Below the pieces are notes generated by a model. That model saw only the letters and a program-made list of their open reading frames with translations. It was not told the DNA's origin and did no database searches. The translations under genes and the position numbers were made by a program. From positions 1 through 38,604 of IMG/VR virus record IMGVR_UViG_3300034072_002194: DNA of 38,604 nucleotides; one strand, given 5' to 3'. Origin of the DNA: a virus. Positions 1-14,190 of this stretch are shown piece after piece; the stretch's first letter is position 1; every line of letters begins with the position of its first letter.

Positions 1-270
1 ATGTTGCTGAATGACGTTAAGTGGGAAAAGCCCGTTACCATCTCCCTTGAAAACGGTGCCCCTCGAATTTTCACAGGCGTTTACGAAGCCTTCGATTTTC
101 TCCAGCATGAGTGGCCCGAGCGGGGAGACAAGGCGCACGAACAGGCGCTTCGCCTGTGCCGCGCCTCGCTCATGGGCGATGTGGGGGGAGAGATAGCCCG
201 CACGGCCTTCGTCGCCGCCAGCCGGCAGGCGCGTTGCCTCGTTGAGGAGCCGGAAAAAATCGCATCCTGA
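1..270 (+). CDS. DUF982 domain protein
   Basis: Small 89-residue protein of the DUF982 family, which is abundant and multi-copy in Rhizobiaceae; no biochemical role is established for it. The family look comes from the order of a beta-rich N-terminus ending in IFTGVYEAFDFLQHEWP, followed by a helical half with A.RLCRASLMGD and ARTAFVAASRQA. It fills the usual family length of about 80 to 100 residues. The ATG is the first base of the window, so an upstream start cannot be excluded. A strong intrinsic terminator follows 27 bases after the stop, which makes it the end of its transcript. Chromosomal host gene. Confidence 0.8.
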   Translation: MLLNDVKWEKPVTISLENGAPRIFTGVYEAFDFLQHEWPERGDKAHEQALRLCRASLMGDVGGEIARTAFVAASRQARCLVEEPEKIAS

Positions 271-296
271 GCCGATTTTGGAACTGACGTGTGAAA

Positions 297-330
297 GGCC
301 ACCCGCCCAAAACGGGTGGCCTTTTTTGTT
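297..330 (+). terminator. Intrinsic terminator after the DUF982 gene
   Basis: A perfect 9-bp stem GGCCACCCG (297-305) / CGGGTGGCC (313-321) with a 7-base loop is followed by six T residues. It separates the DUF982 gene from the ogt-like gene, which therefore needs its own promoter in 330-395. Confidence 0.9.
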
Positions 331-395
331 GTGTGGCAGGAAACGGGTTGTTTCGAATGCGGGATATGGCATCGTGCAGGCGTAAAGGCGAATGA

Positions 396-962
396 GTGAC
401 GGTGATGGGCAGCCACTACGGCTATATTGTTTTTCCAACGGCGCTTGGCCATTGCGGCCTCGCATGGGCGGGGCGAGGTATCGTGCGTCTGCAATTGCCG
501 GGAGCGGACGCCGGCGAAACGGAAAAGCTCCTTCAGAAGCGCCTGCCGTCCGCCTCCATCGCCGTTCCCGAGACGCGGACACGTGAGGTGATTGCGATGA
601 TCACCCGTTATTTCGGCGGTGAGGCAATCGATTTTAAGGCCGTGGACCTTGATCTCGCCGGGCAGGAACGATTTTTTCTCGACGTCTATGCCGTCGCGCG
701 ACAGGTCGGCTGGGGCAACACGACGACGTATGGCGGCATCGTGAAGACACTCGGTCTTGGCATGGAGAGAGCACGCGACGTCGGCCAGGCAATGGCGAAA
801 AATCCGGTGCCGCTGATCATTCCGTGTCACCGGGTCCTTGCCGCAGGTGGCAGGCTTGGCGGCTTCTCCGCACCGGGCGGAACCACTACCAAATTGCGGA
901 TGCTGGACCTTGAAAATGCCGGCCGTAGCCGTGCGGATGATGCGCAGGGCAGCCTGTTCTGA
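396..962 (+). CDS. ogt: Methylated-DNA--protein-cysteine methyltransferase (Ogt/MGMT type)
   Basis: Suicide repair enzyme that moves alkyl groups from O6-alkylguanine or O4-alkylthymine in DNA onto its own cysteine. The 188-residue protein has the signature PCHRV with acceptor Cys144 and His145, the preceding DNA-binding helix region GNTTTYGGIV, and the GGFSAPGG loop after the active site, all in family order. An N-terminal ribonuclease-like domain covers about the first 90 residues. The GTG at 396 has AAAGG about eight bases upstream; the in-frame ATG at 405 is an alternative start without a good ribosome site. It ends before a 113-base gap and appears to be a single-gene unit belonging to the host chromosome. 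Confidence 0.93.
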   Translation: MTVMGSHYGYIVFPTALGHCGLAWAGRGIVRLQLPGADAGETEKLLQKRLPSASIAVPETRTREVIAMITRYFGGEAIDFKAVDLDLAGQERFFLDVYAVARQVGWGNTTTYGGIVKTLGLGMERARDVGQAMAKNPVPLIIPCHRVLAAGGRLGGFSAPGGTTTKLRMLDLENAGRSRADDAQGSLF

Positions 963-1075
963 AGCAATGACAGATCAGCCCGCATGAATAGGCGTCTGAT
1001 TTCTGCCCATTTCTCGTCAAATTGTCGCTAAATTGTCACAATACACGAACGCCCGCTAACATAAGGGCGAGACGT

Positions 1076-1519
1076 TTGAGAGTATCCGCGTTAATTCTAT
1101 CCGTTGCCTTGTCTTTTACAGTCGTGGCACCGGCCTCGGCTGGCATGCTGAACCAGGCTGAGAAATACACCGGGCTGCATGAGTCCAAGAACAACAAGAG
1201 CCTCAAGAACATTCTTGGGGCAAATCCGAGAAGTACGCCGTGGTGCGGCCTTTTCCTGCATGCCGTAGCCAGCAAGGCCGGCCGGCAATCACCCAAATCC
1301 TACGGATTTGCGAAATCCTGGAGTTCCTTCGGTTATGCCGTCCCGGTTGGCCAGGCAAAGCCCGGTGATGTCGTCGTCATCCGCAACGGCCGGGGATATC
1401 ATGCTGGTATTCTAAAGAGCATGAGCGGCAAGACCGCACAAATCCTGGGCGGCAACCAATCGGGCAGGGTGCAGGTCTCGAATTTCAACCGCAAGGCCAT
1501 CGTTTCGGTTCGGCGATAA
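1076..1519 (+). CDS. Exported Cys/His hydrolase-like protein (TIGR02594 family)
   Basis: Probably an exported cell-wall amidase-like protein. Starting at TTG 1076 it gives a signal peptide: MRV, a hydrophobic stretch LILSVALSFTVV, then an A-S-A cleavage site, leaving a mature part of about 125 residues. The mature part has PWCGLFLHAV, with a candidate catalytic Cys, then PGDVVVIRNGRGYHAGIL with a candidate catalytic His, and a GGNQ motif; this is the order seen in TIGR02594 and CHAP/NlpC-like proteins. AAGGG lies about eight bases before the TTG. The reading frame is open back to another TTG at 1022, but that extension would place charged residues ahead of the signal. Single-gene host unit closed by a terminator. 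Enzyme activity is inferred, not shown. Confidence 0.75.
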   Translation: MRVSALILSVALSFTVVAPASAGMLNQAEKYTGLHESKNNKSLKNILGANPRSTPWCGLFLHAVASKAGRQSPKSYGFAKSWSSFGYAVPVGQAKPGDVVVIRNGRGYHAGILKSMSGKTAQILGGNQSGRVQVSNFNRKAIVSVRR

Positions 1520-1540
1520 ATTCCCTGCATTCCCTTGATA

Positions 1541-1570
1541 AAGGCGGGCCTCGACCCGCCTTTTCCTTTT
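1541..1570 (+). terminator. Intrinsic terminator between convergent genes
   Basis: An 8-bp perfect stem AAGGCGGG (1541-1548) / CCCGCCTT (1555-1562) with a 6-base loop is followed by a T-rich run (TTCCTTTT). It lies between convergent genes: it clearly serves the plus-strand hydrolase gene. On the minus strand the T run is weaker, so bidirectional use is possible but less certain. Confidence 0.85.
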
Positions 1571-1808
1571 AAGGCTGTTCTCTCGTGCCTGGCGCCGCCT
1601 CGCGCTGGTCGTCGTCCTCCAGATCGGTGGCGACAATGAAAGCATCCTCGTGCTGCCTTGCAGCCTGCCGGCGTGCACGCAGGTTCATGCTCTCGTCCGG
1701 ATAAATCTCGCCTTCCTTGTCTTTCAACTCGCTGTCTGTCTCGAAACGCGCAACGTCGTCGTCTTCAATATCAAGCGGTTCGGGTTTCGGCTTCTGCGGG
1801 GTGTTCAT
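1569..1808 (-). CDS. Hypothetical acidic protein
   Basis: 79-residue hydrophilic protein with no recognisable domain. It is rich in Asp and Glu (EPLDIEDDDVARFETDSELKD) and has a short basic segment (RARRQAARQ). Short proteins of this type are common in Rhizobiaceae. The start at 1808 is preferred because AGGAG sits about nine bases upstream; a longer reading to 1886 has no ribosome site. Convergent with the exported hydrolase gene. No function can be assigned. Confidence 0.6.
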   Translation of the reverse strand: MNTPQKPKPEPLDIEDDDVARFETDSELKDKEGEIYPDESMNLRARRQAARQHEDAFIVATDLEDDDQREAAPGTREQP

Positions 1809-1810
1809 GA

Positions 1811-2383
<573 letters not shown>

Positions 2384-2597
2384 TGGCTTGACGGCCGCAC
2401 AGCAGGAAGTCACGAAAACTTCCAGTTCACGCCGGGCGAATTGCAGCTGCACTTCGCTCGGCTGACACGCTTTTGAGAAAAATGGCTCCCCGGGCCGGTG
2501 TGGGATCCAACTGGTTCGCGATAACCTTGGTTATGAAAATCAATTAGTTATGATGCGTTCTCAGAATAGTGCGGGCGTTGTGTAGACATTTTTGTAT
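2384..2597. other. Probable left host-prophage junction
   Basis: No gene is seen here. The stretch is visibly more AT-rich than its surroundings from about 2520 on. It holds a 6-bp hairpin GGAAGT (2405-2410) / ACTTCC (2418-2423) and an inverted repeat ATAACC-TT-GGTTAT at 2521-2534. The leftward phage operon ends at 2598 and the last host-type gene at 2383, so attL should lie here by inference. No tRNA, integrase or transposase is present, and without the right end the att core cannot be identified. No good terminator for the minus-strand operon is visible. Confidence 0.45.
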
Positions 2598-3346: not shown

Positions 3347-3690
3347 GGATTGCCCGCCTCGACTTCCTCGCACCGCATCCGTCGAGCCTGCTCACGGCGC
3401 ATGGCGTTCTGTTTGCGCGTGACCATCTCCAGATGCTCAGGATCCGGATTTACACACAGCCGGTTACGGCACTTGTGGTCCAGCTCCTTCTTACCGGGTA
3501 TGTATCCGTGCTCGTTGGTCCACATCGCGATGTGCACCGCGACGGTTTGGCCTCCAAGCGACATGCGAGGGTAGCCGTGGCCGCGCCCGCTGGTGCCGGA
3601 CGTTGGGCCTGTCCAAAGCCAGCAGCCCGTGACCGGATCAACGCTGACACGGCTCATGATCTTTTCGCGGATAGACTGGCGGCGGCTCAT
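3343..3690 (-). CDS. HNH endonuclease
   Basis: 115-residue phage HNH nuclease, expected to cut or nick DNA using a beta-beta-alpha metal fold. The core reads LDHKCRNRLCVNPDPEHLE: Asp71-His72, Cys74, Asn76, Cys79, Asn81 and His86 provide the HNH and zinc-type residues. Upstream TGCWLWTGPTSGTSGRGHGYPR is the beta-rich segment typical of small phage HNH_3 proteins, and AVHIAMWTNEHGYIPGKKELDH follows the usual spacing. The start at 3690 overlaps the upstream stop as TAATG. It may be a free-standing homing-type nuclease or a phage DNA-processing enzyme; it is far from the terminase, so a packaging role is less likely. Confidence 0.88.
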   Translation of the reverse strand: MSRRQSIREKIMSRVSVDPVTGCWLWTGPTSGTSGRGHGYPRMSLGGQTVAVHIAMWTNEHGYIPGKKELDHKCRNRLCVNPDPEHLEMVTRKQNAMRREQARRMRCEEVEAGNP

Positions 3691-4586: not shown

Positions 4587-5759
4587 CTAAACCCTCATTG
4601 GCATGAGGAGCCGGGTCATTTCCGGATCCTGATCGGCGAGGGCAATTGGTCCACCATCGCCATTCAGCTGCATCGCGACGGAACCCTGGCAGCGCTTCAC
4701 CATGTCGGCCATGTACCGGCTGTTGACGCCGATCGGCGCGAGGTCTTCCGGCCAATCGCACGAGGTGGACACCTTGGCTGTGCCAAGCTCCTCGTTCTTC
4801 ACCTCCACATGAAGCTTACCTGAAACACCGTGCAGCCGAATGGCTGAACCGCGCCAGCCGCCGATAGCAGTGGCTTGCCGGATCGCCGGCAGCATCTCGT
4901 CGGTCCGGATCTCAAGTCGGTGGGCAAACTCTTTCGGTATCACCCGCTCGATGTCGGGGAATGTTCCGTCGATAAGCTTGCTTCTCAGAACGAGACCCGG
5001 CCCTTTGAATTCAAGCACGGTTTCGATGATCTTGTTGCCGTTGCTGACGGAGAAGATCTCGACGTCGGCGTTGGCAAGGTGCTGGGAAATCACGCCCACG
5101 GTTTTGCGAGGGATGATGTAGTTGAAGGCGGTTGCGTCTTCGTTTGCCGCGTACCTGCAGAGCGCTAGGCGGTGACCGTCTGTCGCGGCCATGCGTCTGC
5201 CGTTGGGCGTGGACGCCCAGTTGACACCATTCAGGTAATAGCGCGTCTCCTCGGTCGAGATGCAGCCAGACACCTTTTTGAGCGCAAGCGCGAAATGACC
5301 GTTGGTGAAGCGCTCGACCATGCCAGCCTTGTCGCCTGCTATGGTCGGAAAGTCCTCTGGCGCATGAGCCTCTACTGTGTAAGAGGCGACGCCAACACGG
5401 ATTTCGGCGTTGTGTCGGATCGACGTCGCACCTGTCTTCTCGTTCTTCGTCTCGACCTGAGCGGGCTCGATGTGCACCCACCCTGTTCCTGCGGCAGATG
5501 CTACGGCAGCAAGGAACCGAGCGGGAATGCACAGCGACCAGGTGCCGGCGCCCTCGACCTCGTCGACTTGGATGGTTGCATGCAAGTCGAGGTCGGTAGC
5601 CTCAACCGACAAACCCTTTTTTCCGAAGTTGAGGCGAACGTCGTTCAATATCGGGATGGTGTTCCGCACCTCGATAATCGAGTTCGCGAGCTTGAGCGCT
5701 GAGGCCAGTTCCTTGGCTTCAACGGAGACGTATTTTGATGCCGTCGTTTGGCTGATCAT
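4587..5759 (-). CDS. dnaN: Phage DNA polymerase III beta sliding clamp
   Basis: 390-residue DnaN-like clamp, a dimeric ring that tethers polymerase and other partners to DNA. Seen along the chain: NTIPILNDVRL (33-43), DLDLHATI (57-63), TEETRYYLNGVNW (169-181), RRMAATDGHRLALCRY (188-203), DGTFPDIERVIP (264-275), and the C-terminal LLMPMRV matching the conserved MPMRL end. Three repeated clamp domains fit the length, slightly longer than the usual 366 to 372. No polymerase or clamp loader is in the window, so it probably works with host enzymes or competes with the host clamp. A possible ribosome site AAAGG precedes the ATG. Confidence 0.93.
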   Translation of the reverse strand: MISQTTASKYVSVEAKELASALKLANSIIEVRNTIPILNDVRLNFGKKGLSVEATDLDLHATIQVDEVEGAGTWSLCIPARFLAAVASAAGTGWVHIEPAQVETKNEKTGATSIRHNAEIRVGVASYTVEAHAPEDFPTIAGDKAGMVERFTNGHFALALKKVSGCISTEETRYYLNGVNWASTPNGRRMAATDGHRLALCRYAANEDATAFNYIIPRKTVGVISQHLANADVEIFSVSNGNKIIETVLEFKGPGLVLRSKLIDGTFPDIERVIPKEFAHRLEIRTDEMLPAIRQATAIGGWRGSAIRLHGVSGKLHVEVKNEELGTAKVSTSCDWPEDLAPIGVNSRYMADMVKRCQGSVAMQLNGDGGPIALADQDPEMTRLLMPMRV

Positions 5760-8681: not shown

Positions 8682-8948
8682 ATGAAACGGCCACCAATCG
8701 ATCACCCGGATGCGATGCGATTAATTGTGGAGCTTTCTAACCTCTATGTGGCCTGCGACGACTGCGGCCATTCTCGGATTCTTGGTCTGGATAACCTGCG
8801 AAAAGCGAGCGAGCTTGGGGTGCATAACTACATGCAATTATGCCGGAAGATTAGGTGCAGCGAGTGCCCAAAAACAATTCCGGCATTTAGGAATTTGACG
8901 ATCCGGCCGACGTGGCGCGCCGAATACTCTATTCACAGCAGCGCGTGA
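8682..8948 (+). CDS. Small zinc-ribbon-like protein
   Basis: 88 residues with two CxxC pairs: VACDDCGHSRIL near residues 24-35 and KIRCSECPKTIP near 56-67, spaced as in a small zinc ribbon. Between them is a helix with LDNLRKASELGVHNYMQLCRK. Such proteins are frequent in Rhizobiales genomes and have no proven role. GTGAGGAA directly precedes the ATG at 8682; an in-frame ATG at 8652 lacks a ribosome site. The gene is transcribed against the repressor gene and overlaps its end by 16 bases, so expression of either may affect the other. Confidence 0.7.
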   Translation: MKRPPIDHPDAMRLIVELSNLYVACDDCGHSRILGLDNLRKASELGVHNYMQLCRKIRCSECPKTIPAFRNLTIRPTWRAEYSIHSSA

Positions 8949-9664
8949 AATACGACCTTGTGAATGCTGAAGACTTTGTCTGTCGGGAATTCCAGTTCGT
9001 GTGTTTCGCCAGGTCCTGGATTGTACTGATAAAGACGCAAAACGTCGCCGCTTTGGCTCTCGAACCGCTTAATGTAGCTCGACACTTCGTCATCTTCGAA
9101 ATCACCAAGGATCTGAACGATCACGTCGTCGCCTTTGCGGTAGCGGGCATGGGGATTAGCCCACGCTGTCTCACCATGATAGAAACGCGGCTCTCCTGAA
9201 GTTCCTTGTATTTGAACCGCGTAAGCCCCTTCAACGCCTTCCAAGCCGGGCGGACAGAAAACCCGCGCAATGTCTTGGCCGTTCATGATGAAGCGTCCGT
9301 TCGGCCCCGCGGAAATCTGGCCCCTTAGCGGAATGGAGACGTCGCCAGGAAAGGCTTGCCAGCGAGGGGGGAAGCTTGCGTTTGGTTTCGGTCGTGGCGC
9401 TGAAGGCTGCGCTGGAAGGTCGTTCGACGGATTGAGCCAGCTGGCCATTTCCTCGTAGCCGGGTGGAAGCTCTTGAAAGAACCGGGCGATACCTTCGATC
9501 TCTTGGAGGCTGATTTTCCGCGGCTCTTTAGTGTTTGGCTTCATCCTGCTCAACATCGTCGAGGAGACGCCGATCGTCTCCGCCAATTCGCTCGCCGTTC
9601 CGCGCGGAGAGTTCTTGAGCTTCTGGTCGAGCCAATTCTTAATTTCGTACTGAGGATCTTGCAT
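8933..9664 (-). CDS. cI: CI/LexA-type prophage repressor (HTH + S24 peptidase)
   Basis: 243-residue phage repressor. An XRE-type helix-turn-helix lies at about residues 22-42 (GTASELAETIGVSSTMLSRMK). The S24 domain has a candidate self-cleavage site Ala119-Gly120 (GQISAGP), a candidate nucleophile Ser156 (GTSGEP) and Lys199 (YIKRF). The Ser-Lys distance of 43 equals that of lambda CI as known from the literature, so RecA-stimulated self-cleavage and SOS induction are likely. The usual Met after the catalytic Ser is Gly here. The start at 9664 is chosen because upstream in-frame sequence runs through the operators. Divergent from the cro-like gene; no clear ribosome site. Confidence 0.9.
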   Translation of the reverse strand: MQDPQYEIKNWLDQKLKNSPRGTASELAETIGVSSTMLSRMKPNTKEPRKISLQEIEGIARFFQELPPGYEEMASWLNPSNDLPAQPSAPRPKPNASFPPRWQAFPGDVSIPLRGQISAGPNGRFIMNGQDIARVFCPPGLEGVEGAYAVQIQGTSGEPRFYHGETAWANPHARYRKGDDVIVQILGDFEDDEVSSYIKRFESQSGDVLRLYQYNPGPGETHELEFPTDKVFSIHKVVFHALL

Positions 9665-9758: not shown

Positions 9759-10004
9759 ATGAGCGAAAACCACCTAGAGCCAGCGAAGTCTGTGATCGCC
9801 AAAATCGGCATCGAGAAAGTGTCTGCCGTAACCGGCAAGCACATATCTCGGGTCTATCGTTGGATGTATCCAAAGGAGCGCGGCGGCACTGGCGGCATCA
9901 TCCCGCAGGCCGATGCTTTCGTTTTGCTTGCCCATGCACGGTCGCAGGGTATCGAGCTTTCGCCCGATGATTTCTTTCGAATTTCTCAGGAGGCCGCAGA
10001 ATGA
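9759..10004 (+). CDS. Cro-like regulator
   Basis: 81-residue protein in the cro position: divergent from the repressor and first gene of the rightward arm. A helix-turn-helix is visible in IGIEKVSAVTGKHISRVYRWM (about residues 16-36), followed by a GGTGGIIPQ turn and a helix ADAFVLLAHARSQGIELSPDDFF, an arrangement known from Cro/Cox-like proteins of alphaproteobacterial phages. It probably binds the same GCGATWATCGC operators and shuts off repressor synthesis. The ATG at 9759 has no ribosome site and may lie at the 5' end of its mRNA. Confidence 0.8.
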   Translation: MSENHLEPAKSVIAKIGIEKVSAVTGKHISRVYRWMYPKERGGTGGIIPQADAFVLLAHARSQGIELSPDDFFRISQEAAE

Positions 10005-10021
10005 TGGCGCTCCAGTTTTTC

Positions 10022-10097
10022 CGCAGCGTAGGGAAGCGGTCATCCCGCGTGGTTCATACCCACGATGTCGCAGGTTCGAATCCTGCCGCTGCAACCA
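10022..10097 (+). tRNA. tRNA-Met(CAT), initiator-like, CCA encoded
   Basis: A full 76-base cloverleaf: acceptor CGCAGCG/CGCTGCA, TA at 8-9, D stem GGGA/TCCC with loop AGCGGTCA, anticodon stem CGTGG/CCACG with loop TTCATAC (anticodon CAT), variable ATGTC, T stem GCAGG/CCTGC with loop TTCGAAT, discriminator A and encoded CCA. All stems pair except C1xA72, the mismatch that marks bacterial initiator tRNA and permits formylation. The 11:24 pair is G:C (purine-pyrimidine), also initiator-like. The three G:C pairs of the anticodon stem are only partly kept (U29:A41, G30:C40, G31:C39). It lies 17 bases after cro in the phage early transcript. Confidence 0.92.
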
Positions 10098-10421
10098 ATC
10101 CCGCCGTTCAACGGCCAGACGACGAGCGGGAAACCGGACGGAAGATGCTTTGCACGCCTGCGAACCCTTCCGTCCGGATCGCCTTTCCTGTTGCGCGAGG
10201 GTTCTTCCTTTCCTCTCTGCGCACCCGCCGTGACGCTTTTCCTCCAAGCTCCGGCGGCCCATTCCCTTCGTTGTCATCATCGTTGTCACTCCTGCTGGCG
10301 TCGCCGCTGATGTGGCGCGGCTGTGGTTGATCTGATGAGCAACGAATAGGCCGCGCCCGCGCGGGCTTCACCGAATCCTTTTCCGATTTTCTTTCCTTGA
10401 CGCGTTCTCAGGGGTGTTTTC
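10098..10421 (+). other. Non-coding stretch after the tRNA, with hairpin
   Basis: No convincing gene on either strand. A perfect 11-bp inverted repeat CCGGACGGAAG (10134-10144) / CTTCCGTCCGG (10167-10177) follows the tRNA and shares CCGGACGG with the leftward leader repeat at 8426. A GC palindrome GCCCGC/GCGGGC lies at 10355-10366 with no T run, so it is not a standard terminator. The hairpins may assist tRNA release from the cro transcript; that is a guess. The stretch ends in the ribosome site AGGGG of the gene at 10422. Confidence 0.5.
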
Positions 10422-10898
10422 GTGCGCACTATTTCCGAAGAAGAAATCCGCAGCCTGAAGGGCGCAACCGAAGCCAGCTACAAGCTCGGCGGCGGTGTGA
10501 CCGATTTTCCTCTGCTGACCCGCGTGAATGTCTCGACGCTGTCGAAGTATGCGAGCTTCAATGAGGAAAACAGCGAAGCCCTGATCCCGATCGATGTCGC
10601 CGTCGAGGCAGACCGCCGCGCGAAAAGCCCGGTCATCGTTGGTGCCATGGCGCGAAAGCTCGGTTTCAAGCTTGTCGTCGATGACGAGATGCAGCCAGAG
10701 GCCCGGCCCATCAATGAAAGCGACATGATGGACCTGATGTCGGAGTTTGCCGACGTCATTAAGGTTGTTCAGGAGGCAAAGCAGACCGGCACGCTCGGCA
10801 CTGCTGCCGTAACCAAGCGCATCACGAAGGAAGTTCACGAGCTTATTCGAGAACTGAAAGAACTGATGGTGAATGCTCCGCAGAGGCCAGACCGATGA
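10422..10898 (+). CDS. Conserved phage protein, possible regulator
   Basis: 158-residue protein read from GTG at 10422, with AGGGG about eight bases upstream. N-terminal SEEEIRSLKGATEASYKLGGGVTDFPLLTRVNVSTLSKYASFNEE resembles a DNA-binding helix arrangement, followed by LIPIDVAVEADRRAKSPVIVGAMARKLGF, then a helical C-terminus (EFADVIKVVQEAKQTGTLGTAAVTKRITKEVHELIRELKEL) with coiled-coil character. Similar proteins occur in rhizobial prophages next to DUF2312 genes, as far as I recall. First protein gene after the tRNA; its stop overlaps the next start as ATGA. Confidence 0.7.
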   Translation: MRTISEEEIRSLKGATEASYKLGGGVTDFPLLTRVNVSTLSKYASFNEENSEALIPIDVAVEADRRAKSPVIVGAMARKLGFKLVVDDEMQPEARPINESDMMDLMSEFADVIKVVQEAKQTGTLGTAAVTKRITKEVHELIRELKELMVNAPQRPDR

Positions 10899-11295: not shown

Positions 11296-11618
11296 TGTCC
11301 GATGATTTCGATCCGTACGCAATTCATGAGCCAAAGCGCGCAGGCGAACGCCCCGGAGACAAGCTGGAAAGTGAGCCGGTCGCAGCGTCCCACCTGCGTT
11401 CCTTTATCGAGCGCATGGAGCGCCTGGCCGAGGAAAAAGAAGTCATCAAGGATGACGAGAAAGCAGTGATGGCCGAAGCGAAAGCCATGGGCTTCGACAA
11501 CAAGGCGATCCGCACCATTCTCCGCATTCGCAAGAAGGATCCGCAGAAGCTTGCCGAGGAGCTTTCGATTCTTGACGTCTATCTCGTGGCCCTCGGTATG
11601 GATGAGGGGCTGCGATGA
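11295..11618 (+). CDS. GapR-family nucleoid-associated protein (DUF2312)
   Basis: 107-residue protein whose residues about 33-105 match DUF2312: LRSFIERMERLAEEKEVIKDD, AEAKAMGFDNKAIRTILRIRKKDP, then AEELSILDVYLVALGM. Caulobacter GapR, the studied member, forms coiled-coil clamps on overtwisted AT-rich DNA and aids gyrase and topoisomerase at replication forks and long genes. A phage copy in the replication operon suggests a role in phage replication or late transcription. The N-terminus has a 30-residue acidic/basic extension. TGATG and ATGA overlaps on the two sides. Confidence 0.9.
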   Translation: MSDDFDPYAIHEPKRAGERPGDKLESEPVAASHLRSFIERMERLAEEKEVIKDDEKAVMAEAKAMGFDNKAIRTILRIRKKDPQKLAEELSILDVYLVALGMDEGLR

Positions 11619-13132
11619 CGATTCAGGGCGAAAGAAAGCAAGCAATCCTCGCGGAAGCTTGCGCTAACGGCAAATTCGATGTTGCCACCGAAGCTGATCG
11701 CAAATCGGCGACTATCCTGCATATGGCTGGGTATCTGGCGCGGGATCCGAAGGTCTCCGGGCGTTTCTATCCGACGACTTCGGGATATGACGAGGTTGGC
11801 GTGGCGCAAAAAGTTAGCGTCGGGGTGGAGCGGAAGATCTCGTCTATCATCGTGGGCAAACGACTGAGGACGCTCGACGAAGATAAGGTTGCGGCGCTCA
11901 TGGCGTCGATACCGGAGCATGGTCTGCGCAATCCGGTTTCGGTCTATGGATTGGAGACTGACGAGACTGTCGAGTTATCCGCTGGCGAGCACAGACTTGA
12001 GGCCATGCGTCGCCTCGGCAAGGAAACGGTGCCTTGCGTCCACTATCAGGGCGATGCGCTTGACCGTGAGCTTTGGGAGATTGACGAGAACCTGATCCGC
12101 AGCGATCTCACTCCGGCTGACAGGGCGCTGTTCGTCTTCCGTCGCAAGGAAATCTACCTCCTGAAGCATCCGGAAACCGCCAACGGCGGCGACCGTCGAT
12201 CAGATCGCCAAGTTGGCGAACTGAAGTCGGCAGAGGTGAAGCGCTTCACTGCGGCGACGGCGGAAGCGACCGGGCAATCAGAACGCGTCATCCAGCGCGA
12301 CGCGGAGCGCGGCGAAAAGGTTTGTGAGCGCGCGTTGCGCATGCTCTCCGGTACTCCGCTGAATACAGGCGCGACACTTGACCGACTGAAACGGCTATCG
12401 CCAGAGGAGCAAATCGTCTGGATCGACGGCGCGTTGCGCGAGCGGCGCCGGGTTCAGGATGAAGCAAAGCAGATCCGCACCGAAACAATGAAGATCAACC
12501 GGACTGTGCGCAACGAGCTCGTTAGCGCCATTGCGTCCAAGGGCCGCGTTTCACCTGGTGCGTTGCCTCGCGCTGCGTTCCCTGTCGGGTACGTCGACGC
12601 CCCCTGGCAGCAGGAAGCGTGGTCTGACGAAACGGGGCAGGACAAGGGATTGATGTATCCTTCGATGCCTCTGGAAGAAATCATGGCGCTTTGCGCCGGC
12701 GACAAGTCGCCATTCACGCCTGACGCCGTTCTATTCTTCTGGGTGCCGATGAACCGGCTCGACGACGGTATCGCTGTTATGCGGGCGTGGGGCTTTGAGT
12801 TCGTCTCCGCGATCGTCTGGGACAAGATTGATATCGGCATGGGCCGATGGGTTCGCGATCGCGCGGAAATACTGCTGATCGGCAAGCGTGGCAAGATCTC
12901 GCTTGCGCCGGAGATGGGAACGCAGCCGCCCAGCCTCTATGCCGAAAAGAAGGGCCCGCATAGCCGAAAGCCGGTATGGTTCGCTGAACAAATTGACCGG
13001 CTCTACCCGACATTACCCAAGCTCGAAATGTTCCAGCGGCGCGAAAGCCTCGCTGATGGCGACGTACGCCTGAATGGAACATGGGAATTTTGGGGTAATC
13101 AGGCGGGCACTCCGAAAGGAGGTGCTGAATGA
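11615..13132 (+). CDS. ParB-like domain fused to MT-A70 adenine methyltransferase
   Basis: 505-residue fusion. Residues about 75-165 are a ParB/sulfiredoxin-like domain: ISSIIVGKRLRTLDEDKV, LSAGEHRLEAMRRLG (GEHR at 124-127), then DENLIRSDLTPADRA. The middle (about 165-310) is helical and charged. From about 325 it is an MT-A70-type N6-adenine methyltransferase: VDAPW (328-331), MYPSMPLEEIMALC, VLFFWVPMNRLDDGIAVMRAWGFEF, WVRDRAEILLIGKRG, then SRKPVWFAEQIDRLYPTLPKLEMFQRR. The catalytic DPPW is DAPW here. It probably methylates phage DNA against host restriction or for regulation, with the ParB part possibly giving binding or nucleotide-dependent clamping. ATGA overlap upstream. Confidence 0.88.
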   Translation: MTIQGERKQAILAEACANGKFDVATEADRKSATILHMAGYLARDPKVSGRFYPTTSGYDEVGVAQKVSVGVERKISSIIVGKRLRTLDEDKVAALMASIPEHGLRNPVSVYGLETDETVELSAGEHRLEAMRRLGKETVPCVHYQGDALDRELWEIDENLIRSDLTPADRALFVFRRKEIYLLKHPETANGGDRRSDRQVGELKSAEVKRFTAATAEATGQSERVIQRDAERGEKVCERALRMLSGTPLNTGATLDRLKRLSPEEQIVWIDGALRERRRVQDEAKQIRTETMKINRTVRNELVSAIASKGRVSPGALPRAAFPVGYVDAPWQQEAWSDETGQDKGLMYPSMPLEEIMALCAGDKSPFTPDAVLFFWVPMNRLDDGIAVMRAWGFEFVSAIVWDKIDIGMGRWVRDRAEILLIGKRGKISLAPEMGTQPPSLYAEKKGPHSRKPVWFAEQIDRLYPTLPKLEMFQRRESLADGDVRLNGTWEFWGNQAGTPKGGAE

Positions 13133-14190
13133 TGATCACTCGCACGCCCGAAATAGACGCCATGATCGCCGACGATGCTCCGGTCGCGATTGGAGTTTCC
13201 GGCGGTAAAGACAGCCAAGGCGCTGCTTTGGCTACATTCGCCTATCTCGATTTGGTCGGGCACAGGGGGCCGCGCATTCTCATCCACGCCGACCTTGGAT
13301 CGGTGGAATGGAACGACAGTTTTCCAGTTTGCGAGAGGCTCGCAGATCACCTCAAGTGTGATCTGGTAGTGGTTCGCCGCAAGGCAGGCGGTCTGATGGA
13401 GCGTTGGGAAAGTCGCTGGCTGTCGAGCAAAACGCGCTACCAAACACTCAGCACCGTTACGCTCGTGCCGTGCTGGTCAACTCCCGCGATGAGATTCTGC
13501 ACCTCAGAACAAAAGACACACGTCATTATGGCGGAGCTGAAACGCCGGTTCAAAGGTCAGAAGATCATCAACGTCACCGGAGTTCGCCGCGAGGGGAGCG
13601 CGGCTCGGGCGCGCATGTCGGTCGCAGATAGTGATGCGTCGGGACAAGTTTTGACCTGGCGTCCGATCATCGACCTCACTGTGGGCCAAGTGTTCGCCAT
13701 TATCGACAACTCGGGCTTGCACCCGCACCCGGCCTACCGGATTTTTGGTATGGGCCGGGTATCGTGTCGCTTTTGCATCATGTCCAACATTGCGGACCTA
13801 ACCGCCGCGAGCGCCCAGCCGGAAAGCCACGATCTTTACCGGCAGATGGTGCAGCTTGAAATTGACAGCAGCTTTGCCTTCCAGGGCTCGCGTTGGCTCG
13901 GCGACGTCGCACCCCATCTGCTTACCTCGGAGATGGTCAAGGGTCTGCACTTTGCCAAAAACCGCGCTGCCCTGCGCAAGCATATAGAAGCTCAGATCAC
14001 TAAGCCGATGCTCTACGTCAAAGGCTGGCCAACACGCATGTTGACAGACGCGGAGGCCAATCTGATGGCCTCCGTGAGGCGACAGGTTAGCGACCTGTAC
14101 GGCTTCAGATCAGATTGCCTCGACGTTAGCTCGATCCATGAATGCTACGCGTTTTTACTGGACGAGAAGACGAGGAAGGCGGCTGCATGA
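13129..14190 (+). CDS. PAPS-reductase-family PP-loop protein
   Basis: 353-residue ATP-pyrophosphatase of the CysH/DndC superfamily. The PP loop SGGKDS is at residues 24-29. Cysteines follow in MRFCTSEQKT and CRFCIMSN, and GVRREGSAARARM is the arginine-rich loop seen in phage members. The C-terminal third is helical. CysH reduces PAPS while DndC works in phosphorothioate DNA modification; phage relatives have no fixed reaction. The lack of dndB/D/E genes argues against a full phosphorothioate system. Directly coupled (ATGA) to the methyltransferase fusion, so a joint role in DNA modification is possible. Confidence 0.82.
   Translation: MMITRTPEIDAMIADDAPVAIGVSGGKDSQGAALATFAYLDLVGHRGPRILIHADLGSVEWNDSFPVCERLADHLKCDLVVVRRKAGGLMERWESRWLSSKTRYQTLSTVTLVPCWSTPAMRFCTSEQKTHVIMAELKRRFKGQKIINVTGVRREGSAARARMSVADSDASGQVLTWRPIIDLTVGQVFAIIDNSGLHPHPAYRIFGMGRVSCRFCIMSNIADLTAASAQPESHDLYRQMVQLEIDSSFAFQGSRWLGDVAPHLLTSEMVKGLHFAKNRAALRKHIEAQITKPMLYVKGWPTRMLTDAEANLMASVRRQVSDLYGFRSDCLDVSSIHECYAFLLDEKTRKAAA

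Follow-up and report, generated by a model that had tools for sequence, protein, structure and literature searches.

An initiator-type tRNA gene keeps a fixed place between cro and cII in temperate rhizobial phages and often carries an anticodon loop nearly absent from cellular genomes

Many temperate rhizobial phages with unrelated cro or cII genes keep an initiator-type tRNA at the same place, between cI/cro and cII and on the same strand. We describe this tRNA from a viral sequence record 38,604 bases long, the whole of which is referred to as the window. Its anticodon loop, with U32 and C38, is a recurrent viral variant that is nearly absent from cellular genomes and not universal in phages. 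It has long been asked why phages carry tRNAs, and this is a clean case: a single tRNA, always an initiator, occupies one regulatory site, and its loop class is used by viruses and almost never by cells. Since the initiator reads the same codon as that of the host, codon-usage compensation cannot easily explain it, and the case separates models of supply or evasion from models of codon bias. Initiator tRNAs of phages were already known and exist in databases, usually labelled tRNA-Met. The fixed cro-cII site and the viral loop class look new, and we found no account in the open-licence literature of the cro-cII address or of a virus-restricted U32/C38 initiator loop.

ARAGORN placed a tRNA-Met(CAT) of 76 nt with encoded CCA at exactly 10022-10097 on the plus strand, the sole tRNA of the window. 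The Rfam model RF00005 matched it over its full length (61.4 bits versus a gathering score of 29, E = 4.4e-11), and the strand folded alone formed a cloverleaf in which position 1 does not pair with position 72. Bacterial initiators are marked by the absence of a 1:72 pair, by an R11:Y24 pair and by G2:C71 and C3:G70. The latter two are the transformylase determinants, while the missing strong 1:72 pair serves formylation and exclusion from elongation. Reading the sequence directly, we found C1xA72, G2:C71, C3:G70, G11:C24, the anticodon CAU within the loop UUCAUAC, A37, U29:A41, G30:C40, G31:C39, A73 and the CCA end. The cloverleaf, encoded CCA, C1xA72 and G11:C24 described in the earlier note were all seen in this way, and the covariance score, which that note had named as a check for a pseudogene, is that of a genuine tRNA. 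Together with the covariation among relatives, these data confirm an intact CAU tRNA with bacterial initiator sequence marks. Charging by the host MetRS and formylation by the host transformylase are predicted from its identity elements.

The same marks recur in relatives. Among 20 of them, 1:72 is a mismatch in 16 and U:A in 4, and 11:24 is G:C in 14 and A:U in 6. Only 1 of the 255 distinct initiator-type tRNAs among the matches listed (two host ones excluded) pairs strongly (C:G) at 1:72, in contrast to elongator-type CAU tRNAs of the same loci, where 12 of 21 have G:C. Position 1 is the most changeable site among close relatives. G2:C71 is kept in 122 and C3:G70 in 123 of the 134 C38 forms among the matches listed, found with a search pattern that did not force these pairs. 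We also analysed how the stems had changed. Across the 20 relatives, 12 base pairs had changed on both sides versus 5.3 in shuffles (none of 500 shuffles reached 12). These compensatory changes occur in all four stems and over deep divergence, and slid structures lost pairing. Thus, the tRNA fold is maintained and is not a product of chance.

Judged by sequence comparison, the window tRNA is of a phage lineage and is neither a captured host gene nor an att-site copy. This assignment follows from its identity to the rhizobial host initiator, which is at most 73% (between the two retrieved host sequences it is 99%). Copies that phages have in this setting share 74-97% identity with it, the closest phage copies 96-97%. 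The earlier note had taken the gene to be probably phage-borne, unless it proved identical to the host initiator, and these figures favour its view. The two tRNAs have in common CAU, a 1:72 mismatch, G2:C71, C3:G70, R11:Y24, G30:C40, G31:C39, A73 and CCA. They differ in the D stem (GGGA/UCCC in the window versus GAGC/GCUC in the host) and in the loop (UUCAUAC versus CUCAUAA), and the window gene sits in a phage operon. In bacterial genomes with prophages of this kind, the anticodon stem-loop of the host initiator reads UCAGG-CUCAUAA-CCUGA, with A29:U41. Host and window therefore both have only two of three G:C pairs at 29-31:39-41. Two of three is the local norm, so three consecutive G:C pairs cannot serve to define the initiators of this group. 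The reduced anticodon stem pointed out in the earlier note is real in so far as U29:A41 is present, but it is not a peculiarity of the phage.

The att sites of many prophages are tRNA genes (PMC5537653), and the gene could in principle be the att-site copy of a host tRNA left by integration. We rejected this origin. The tRNA 3' end is present only once in the window, identity to the host initiator is just 73%, and the gene lies between cI/cro and cII rather than at a prophage end, in complete phages too. An integration-site remnant is therefore very improbable.

The window also encodes a replication gene, a terminase, a portal, a head protease and tail/baseplate genes. Its CI-type repressor lies on the minus strand at 8933-9664 (PHROG 4 transcriptional repressor, E = 1.3e-15), with a probable ATG start at 9664. 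Divergent from it is a gene of 81 amino acids (9759-10004, plus strand) without a match to any PHROG or Pfam family, which we call cro by position only, that is, by its divergence from cI and by synteny with annotated phages. The tRNA begins 17 nt past this gene and lies upstream of a CII-like activator on the same strand (10422-10898, GTG start, PHROG 101 CII-like transcriptional activator, E = 1.4e-9). The spacer between tRNA and cII (10098-10421, plus strand) has no assigned gene. By folding it forms a strong hairpin (CCGGACGGAAG..CTTCCGTCCGG), and its homologue is retained in L002, L035 and L117 despite different cII genes. A sigma-70 promoter scan upstream of the tRNA gave no match. The placement in an early operon proposed in the earlier note is borne out, and many rhizobial prophages have the same arrangement. 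Its suggestion that the tRNA might serve GTG and TTG starts found no support and was rejected: the anticodon is CAU, like that of the host, and no excess of such starts is shown, the list of first-start open reading frames being mechanical.

According to BLAST searches and annotated records, cI, cro, the tRNA and cII follow one another in Agrobacterium phage Rivra, Rhizobium phage RR1-A, Mesorhizobium phage vB_MseS-P1 and the Mesorhizobium plasmid MesoLjLa5. Scanning viral contigs with a pattern yielded further cro-cII cases, and among the bacterial genomes scanned the same site was present in prophages from Agrobacterium, Rhizobium and Chelativorans. Looking through other rhizobial prophages, as had been proposed earlier, thus turned up the same kind of tRNA at the same site. 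To obtain contigs that were not chosen by their tRNA, we searched with CII proteins. Among 98 distinct cII contigs, 16 had a tRNA at most 1.5 kb upstream of cII and on the cII strand. All 16 were initiator-derived (15 with CAU, one decayed to CAA), and no non-initiator tRNA was present in the 1.5-kb stretches upstream of cII in the 98 contigs. The proportion of 16% is inflated because some CII queries came from tRNA-bearing phages, which does not affect the uniform type of tRNA. As 82 of the 98 cII-bearing relatives are without a tRNA, it is dispensable. A covariance model built from 20 cro-cII tRNAs and run on the tRNA-less relatives detected only one remnant beyond the known copies (L359).

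The genes on either side are exchanged around the tRNA. In L305-L308, homology to the window starts at 9989-10017, and cro is different there. The tRNA block is common to the window and to L002, L035 and L117, while cro and cII both differ, and in L150 the same tRNA is flanked by an RR1-A-type cI and cro on one side and by a cII of the window type on the other.

Some copies are decayed or hidden in the records. The Rivra copy (L002:5023-5098), annotated as tRNA-Leu(CAG), is an initiator tRNA in decay whose anticodon stem is broken; other decayed copies are L408:3210-3285 (CAA) and L359:3731-3818. In vB_MseS-P1 (L003:4005-4079) the tRNA is unannotated and lies beneath the coding sequence gp13 ('transcriptional repressor'), the C-terminus of which is translated tRNA. 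A protein frame through the tRNA was considered, as the cro stop of the window is overlapped by an ATG, the frame is open across the tRNA, and one subgroup has spacings of 14, 17 or 20 nt. It was rejected because the frame differs in L003, L142 and L153, and the proteins resembling gp13 look like read-through artefacts.

We then compared the anticodon loops. Host initiators have C32 and A38 (CUCAUAA), whereas the window tRNA and many phage tRNAs have U32 and C38. Counting distinct sequences among the loci fetched, at least 107 had U32 with C38, at least 27 had C32 with C38 and 125 had C32 with A38. C38 thus occurs in at least 134 distinct sequences, the great majority of them from the viral scan. 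Among the genomes of the host family, a C38 initiator was found in 3 of 298 (4 loci), in every case flanked by cI- and cII-like genes of a prophage; among those of the phylum it was found in one further of 398, beside phage head genes. Since C38 occurred in these genomes only within prophage or phage contexts, it is a viral variant. It is not the rule in phages. With a matched D-arm pattern, viral contigs held at least 120 A38 loops versus 45 C38 loops, and the host-type CUCAUAA stands at the same cro-cII site in L003, L005, L305, L335 and L347. Fast evolution of positions 32 and 38 was rejected, as only 4 of 99 close pairs change there. One exception is L305 (tRNA at 3601-3676), which is 97% identical to the window across 1.2 kb around the tRNA and cII; despite this window-like flank its loop is CUCAUAA, as in hosts, and its cro is unrelated.

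What could such a tRNA do? The reading we favour, to which we give about even chances, is that of a delayed-early initiator tRNA, borne by the phage, that backs up or replaces the host initiator when the latter is cut or limiting. Judging from strand and position, the tRNA would belong to the rightward cro-cII operon and be transcribed at the delayed-early stage. Host RNase P would process it, and its identity elements suggest that host MetRS would charge and host transformylase formylate it. The phage would benefit from a spare copy that supports initiation after infection or induction, once the host initiator has been cut by toxins or nucleases or has become scarce.

Cleavage of this kind is known. 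VapC toxins of Shigella and Salmonella cleave tRNA-fMet at A38/C39 (PMC4105405), and a VapC of Bosea (Hyphomicrobiales), whose initiator anticodon stem-loop is the same as that of E. coli, also cleaves tRNA-fMet (PMC8522696). Evasion through anticodon-loop changes at toxin cut sites was proposed for other phage tRNAs, and enteric phages are said mostly to avoid encoding tRNA-fMet (PMC10264068). The loop of the window tRNA differs from that of the host at or next to this known cut site (U32/C38 versus C32/A38). Because C38 replaces the nucleotide 5' of the A38/C39 bond cut by VapC, the spare copy would be expected to resist. Five bacterial genomes carrying such prophages have 2-15 PIN-domain genes each. 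PIN genes are common, and their presence, a necessary condition for evasion of VapC, is weak evidence for it; we know of no tRNA-fMet-cutting toxin in the actual host. The published cleavage, the proposed evasion and these genes, along with the initiator marks, the fixed place and the viral loop class, lead us to favour the spare initiator. For nuclease evasion by the window tRNA the case is circumstantial, namely that a virus-restricted loop adjoins the VapC cut site. The loop change is not general at the cro-cII site, where CUCAUAA occurs as well, and A38 outnumbers C38 in viral contigs; loop-based evasion can thus not be the general role. Against a spare initiator speaks that the tRNA is dispensable in most relatives, that the Rivra and L408 copies are decaying, and that tRNA-fMet was reported to be mostly avoided by enteric phages (PMC10264068). 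A wider proposal, that the cro-cII interval of temperate Hyphomicrobiales phages is an anti-defence locus in which a VapC-resistant U32/C38 initiator would sustain initiation through abortive infection, is tentative, and we think it may well be wrong.

An ordinary extra copy could also raise initiation simply by dosage, as phage transcripts flood the cell, with the loop drifting neutrally. The retention of every initiator mark, the location in an early operon, the occurrence of both loop types at the same site and their rare change between close relatives would all fit. However, rhizobial hosts often have several identical initiators (G005 has 5 host-type matches), and a single added gene shifts dosage little unless strongly expressed. 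Dosage also leaves unexplained why the loop variant is nearly absent from cellular genomes, and we consider it rather unlikely.

If the tRNA fold and the hairpins served outside translation, as an element for processing, transcript ending or antitermination, with RNase P separating the cro and cII messages, one would understand why the tRNA always lies between cro and cII, oriented like cII and next to hairpins. The lambda counterpart of this interval is the place of tR1/nutR. Yet such an element would not need CAU, A73, CCA, G2:C71, C3:G70 or the 1:72 mismatch, all of which are kept. Any tRNA would serve, but all are of initiator type, and similar initiators are located elsewhere in other phages (L004, L006, L009), which makes this role improbable. 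It is just as hard to credit that the tRNA is a passive joint, kept as shared sequence bordering exchangeable immunity modules, or a relic being lost. This would agree with homology starting at 9989-10017 in relatives with a different cro, with the persistence of the tRNA block where cro and cII both differ, and with the decayed copies of Rivra, L408 and L359. For a joint, however, nucleotide identity alone would suffice, whereas the compensatory changes in four stems and the retained identity elements show selection on the RNA itself.

Several known phages invite comparison. The cultured mycobacteriophage Myrna and Caulobacter phage CcrSC have an initiator-type CAU tRNA in their genomes, deposited as tRNA-Met, as the window does, but they are large phages with the host-type loop CUCAUAA, and where we looked the gene lies outside any cro-cII site. 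Closer in kind are the temperate phiLM21-like prophages of Sinorhizobium with a lone CAU tRNA. A tRNA gene is reported in 15 of 25 of them, nearly all CAU, and tRNA-Met and tRNA-fMet are both listed (PMC12429752). Unlike that of the window, the phiLM21 tRNA adjoins HNH and terminase genes. For this tRNA-Met (phiLM21_p036, L006:3976-4052), the record gives the minus strand and ARAGORN the plus strand. The putative evasion tRNAs of mycobacteriophages follow the same proposed logic of a loop change near a nuclease cut site, but they form large arrays in one phage cluster, unlike the single tRNA of the window (PMC10264068). The actinobacterial Micromonospora phage pMLP1 (L009:2996-3070) has a lone R11:Y24 CAU tRNA with A1xA72, without annotation in the record.

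Upstream, the tRNA adjoins a conserved block (9989-10021, plus strand) that may act as a terminator or bear a ribosome-binding site, and homology to L305-L307 starts at its first base, 9989. It contains a hairpin (GGAGGCC...GGCGCTCC) that spans the cro stop codon and is followed by AGTTTTTC. In most loci a GC-rich hairpin and a pyrimidine-rich tract adjoin the tRNA 5' end, for example upstream of the tRNA in L018, L047, L052, L335, L395 and L399. Hairpin strength had a mean z of -2.3 over 29 loci (z of -3 or lower in 10 of 29), whereas the window itself reached just -0.5. At the tRNA border, Cro proteins from different families share the ending EAAE-stop, which an ATG overlaps. The hairpin resembles a tR1-type terminator or a hairpin for translational coupling, and it may also be a recombination border.

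Elsewhere in the window, a phage-encoded homologue of the DNA polymerase sliding clamp lies at 4587-5759 on the minus strand (PHROG 947); Rivra also has one. Downstream of cII (11615-14190), a ParB-N/DNA methyltransferase-like fusion is followed by a PAPS-reductase-like gene, in the same order as in Rivra, and the two may be a DNA modification pair. The left end of the window (1-2400) looks host-like, with DUF982, an O6-methylguanine methyltransferase domain and an NlpC/P60-like gene, so the record probably crosses a prophage border.
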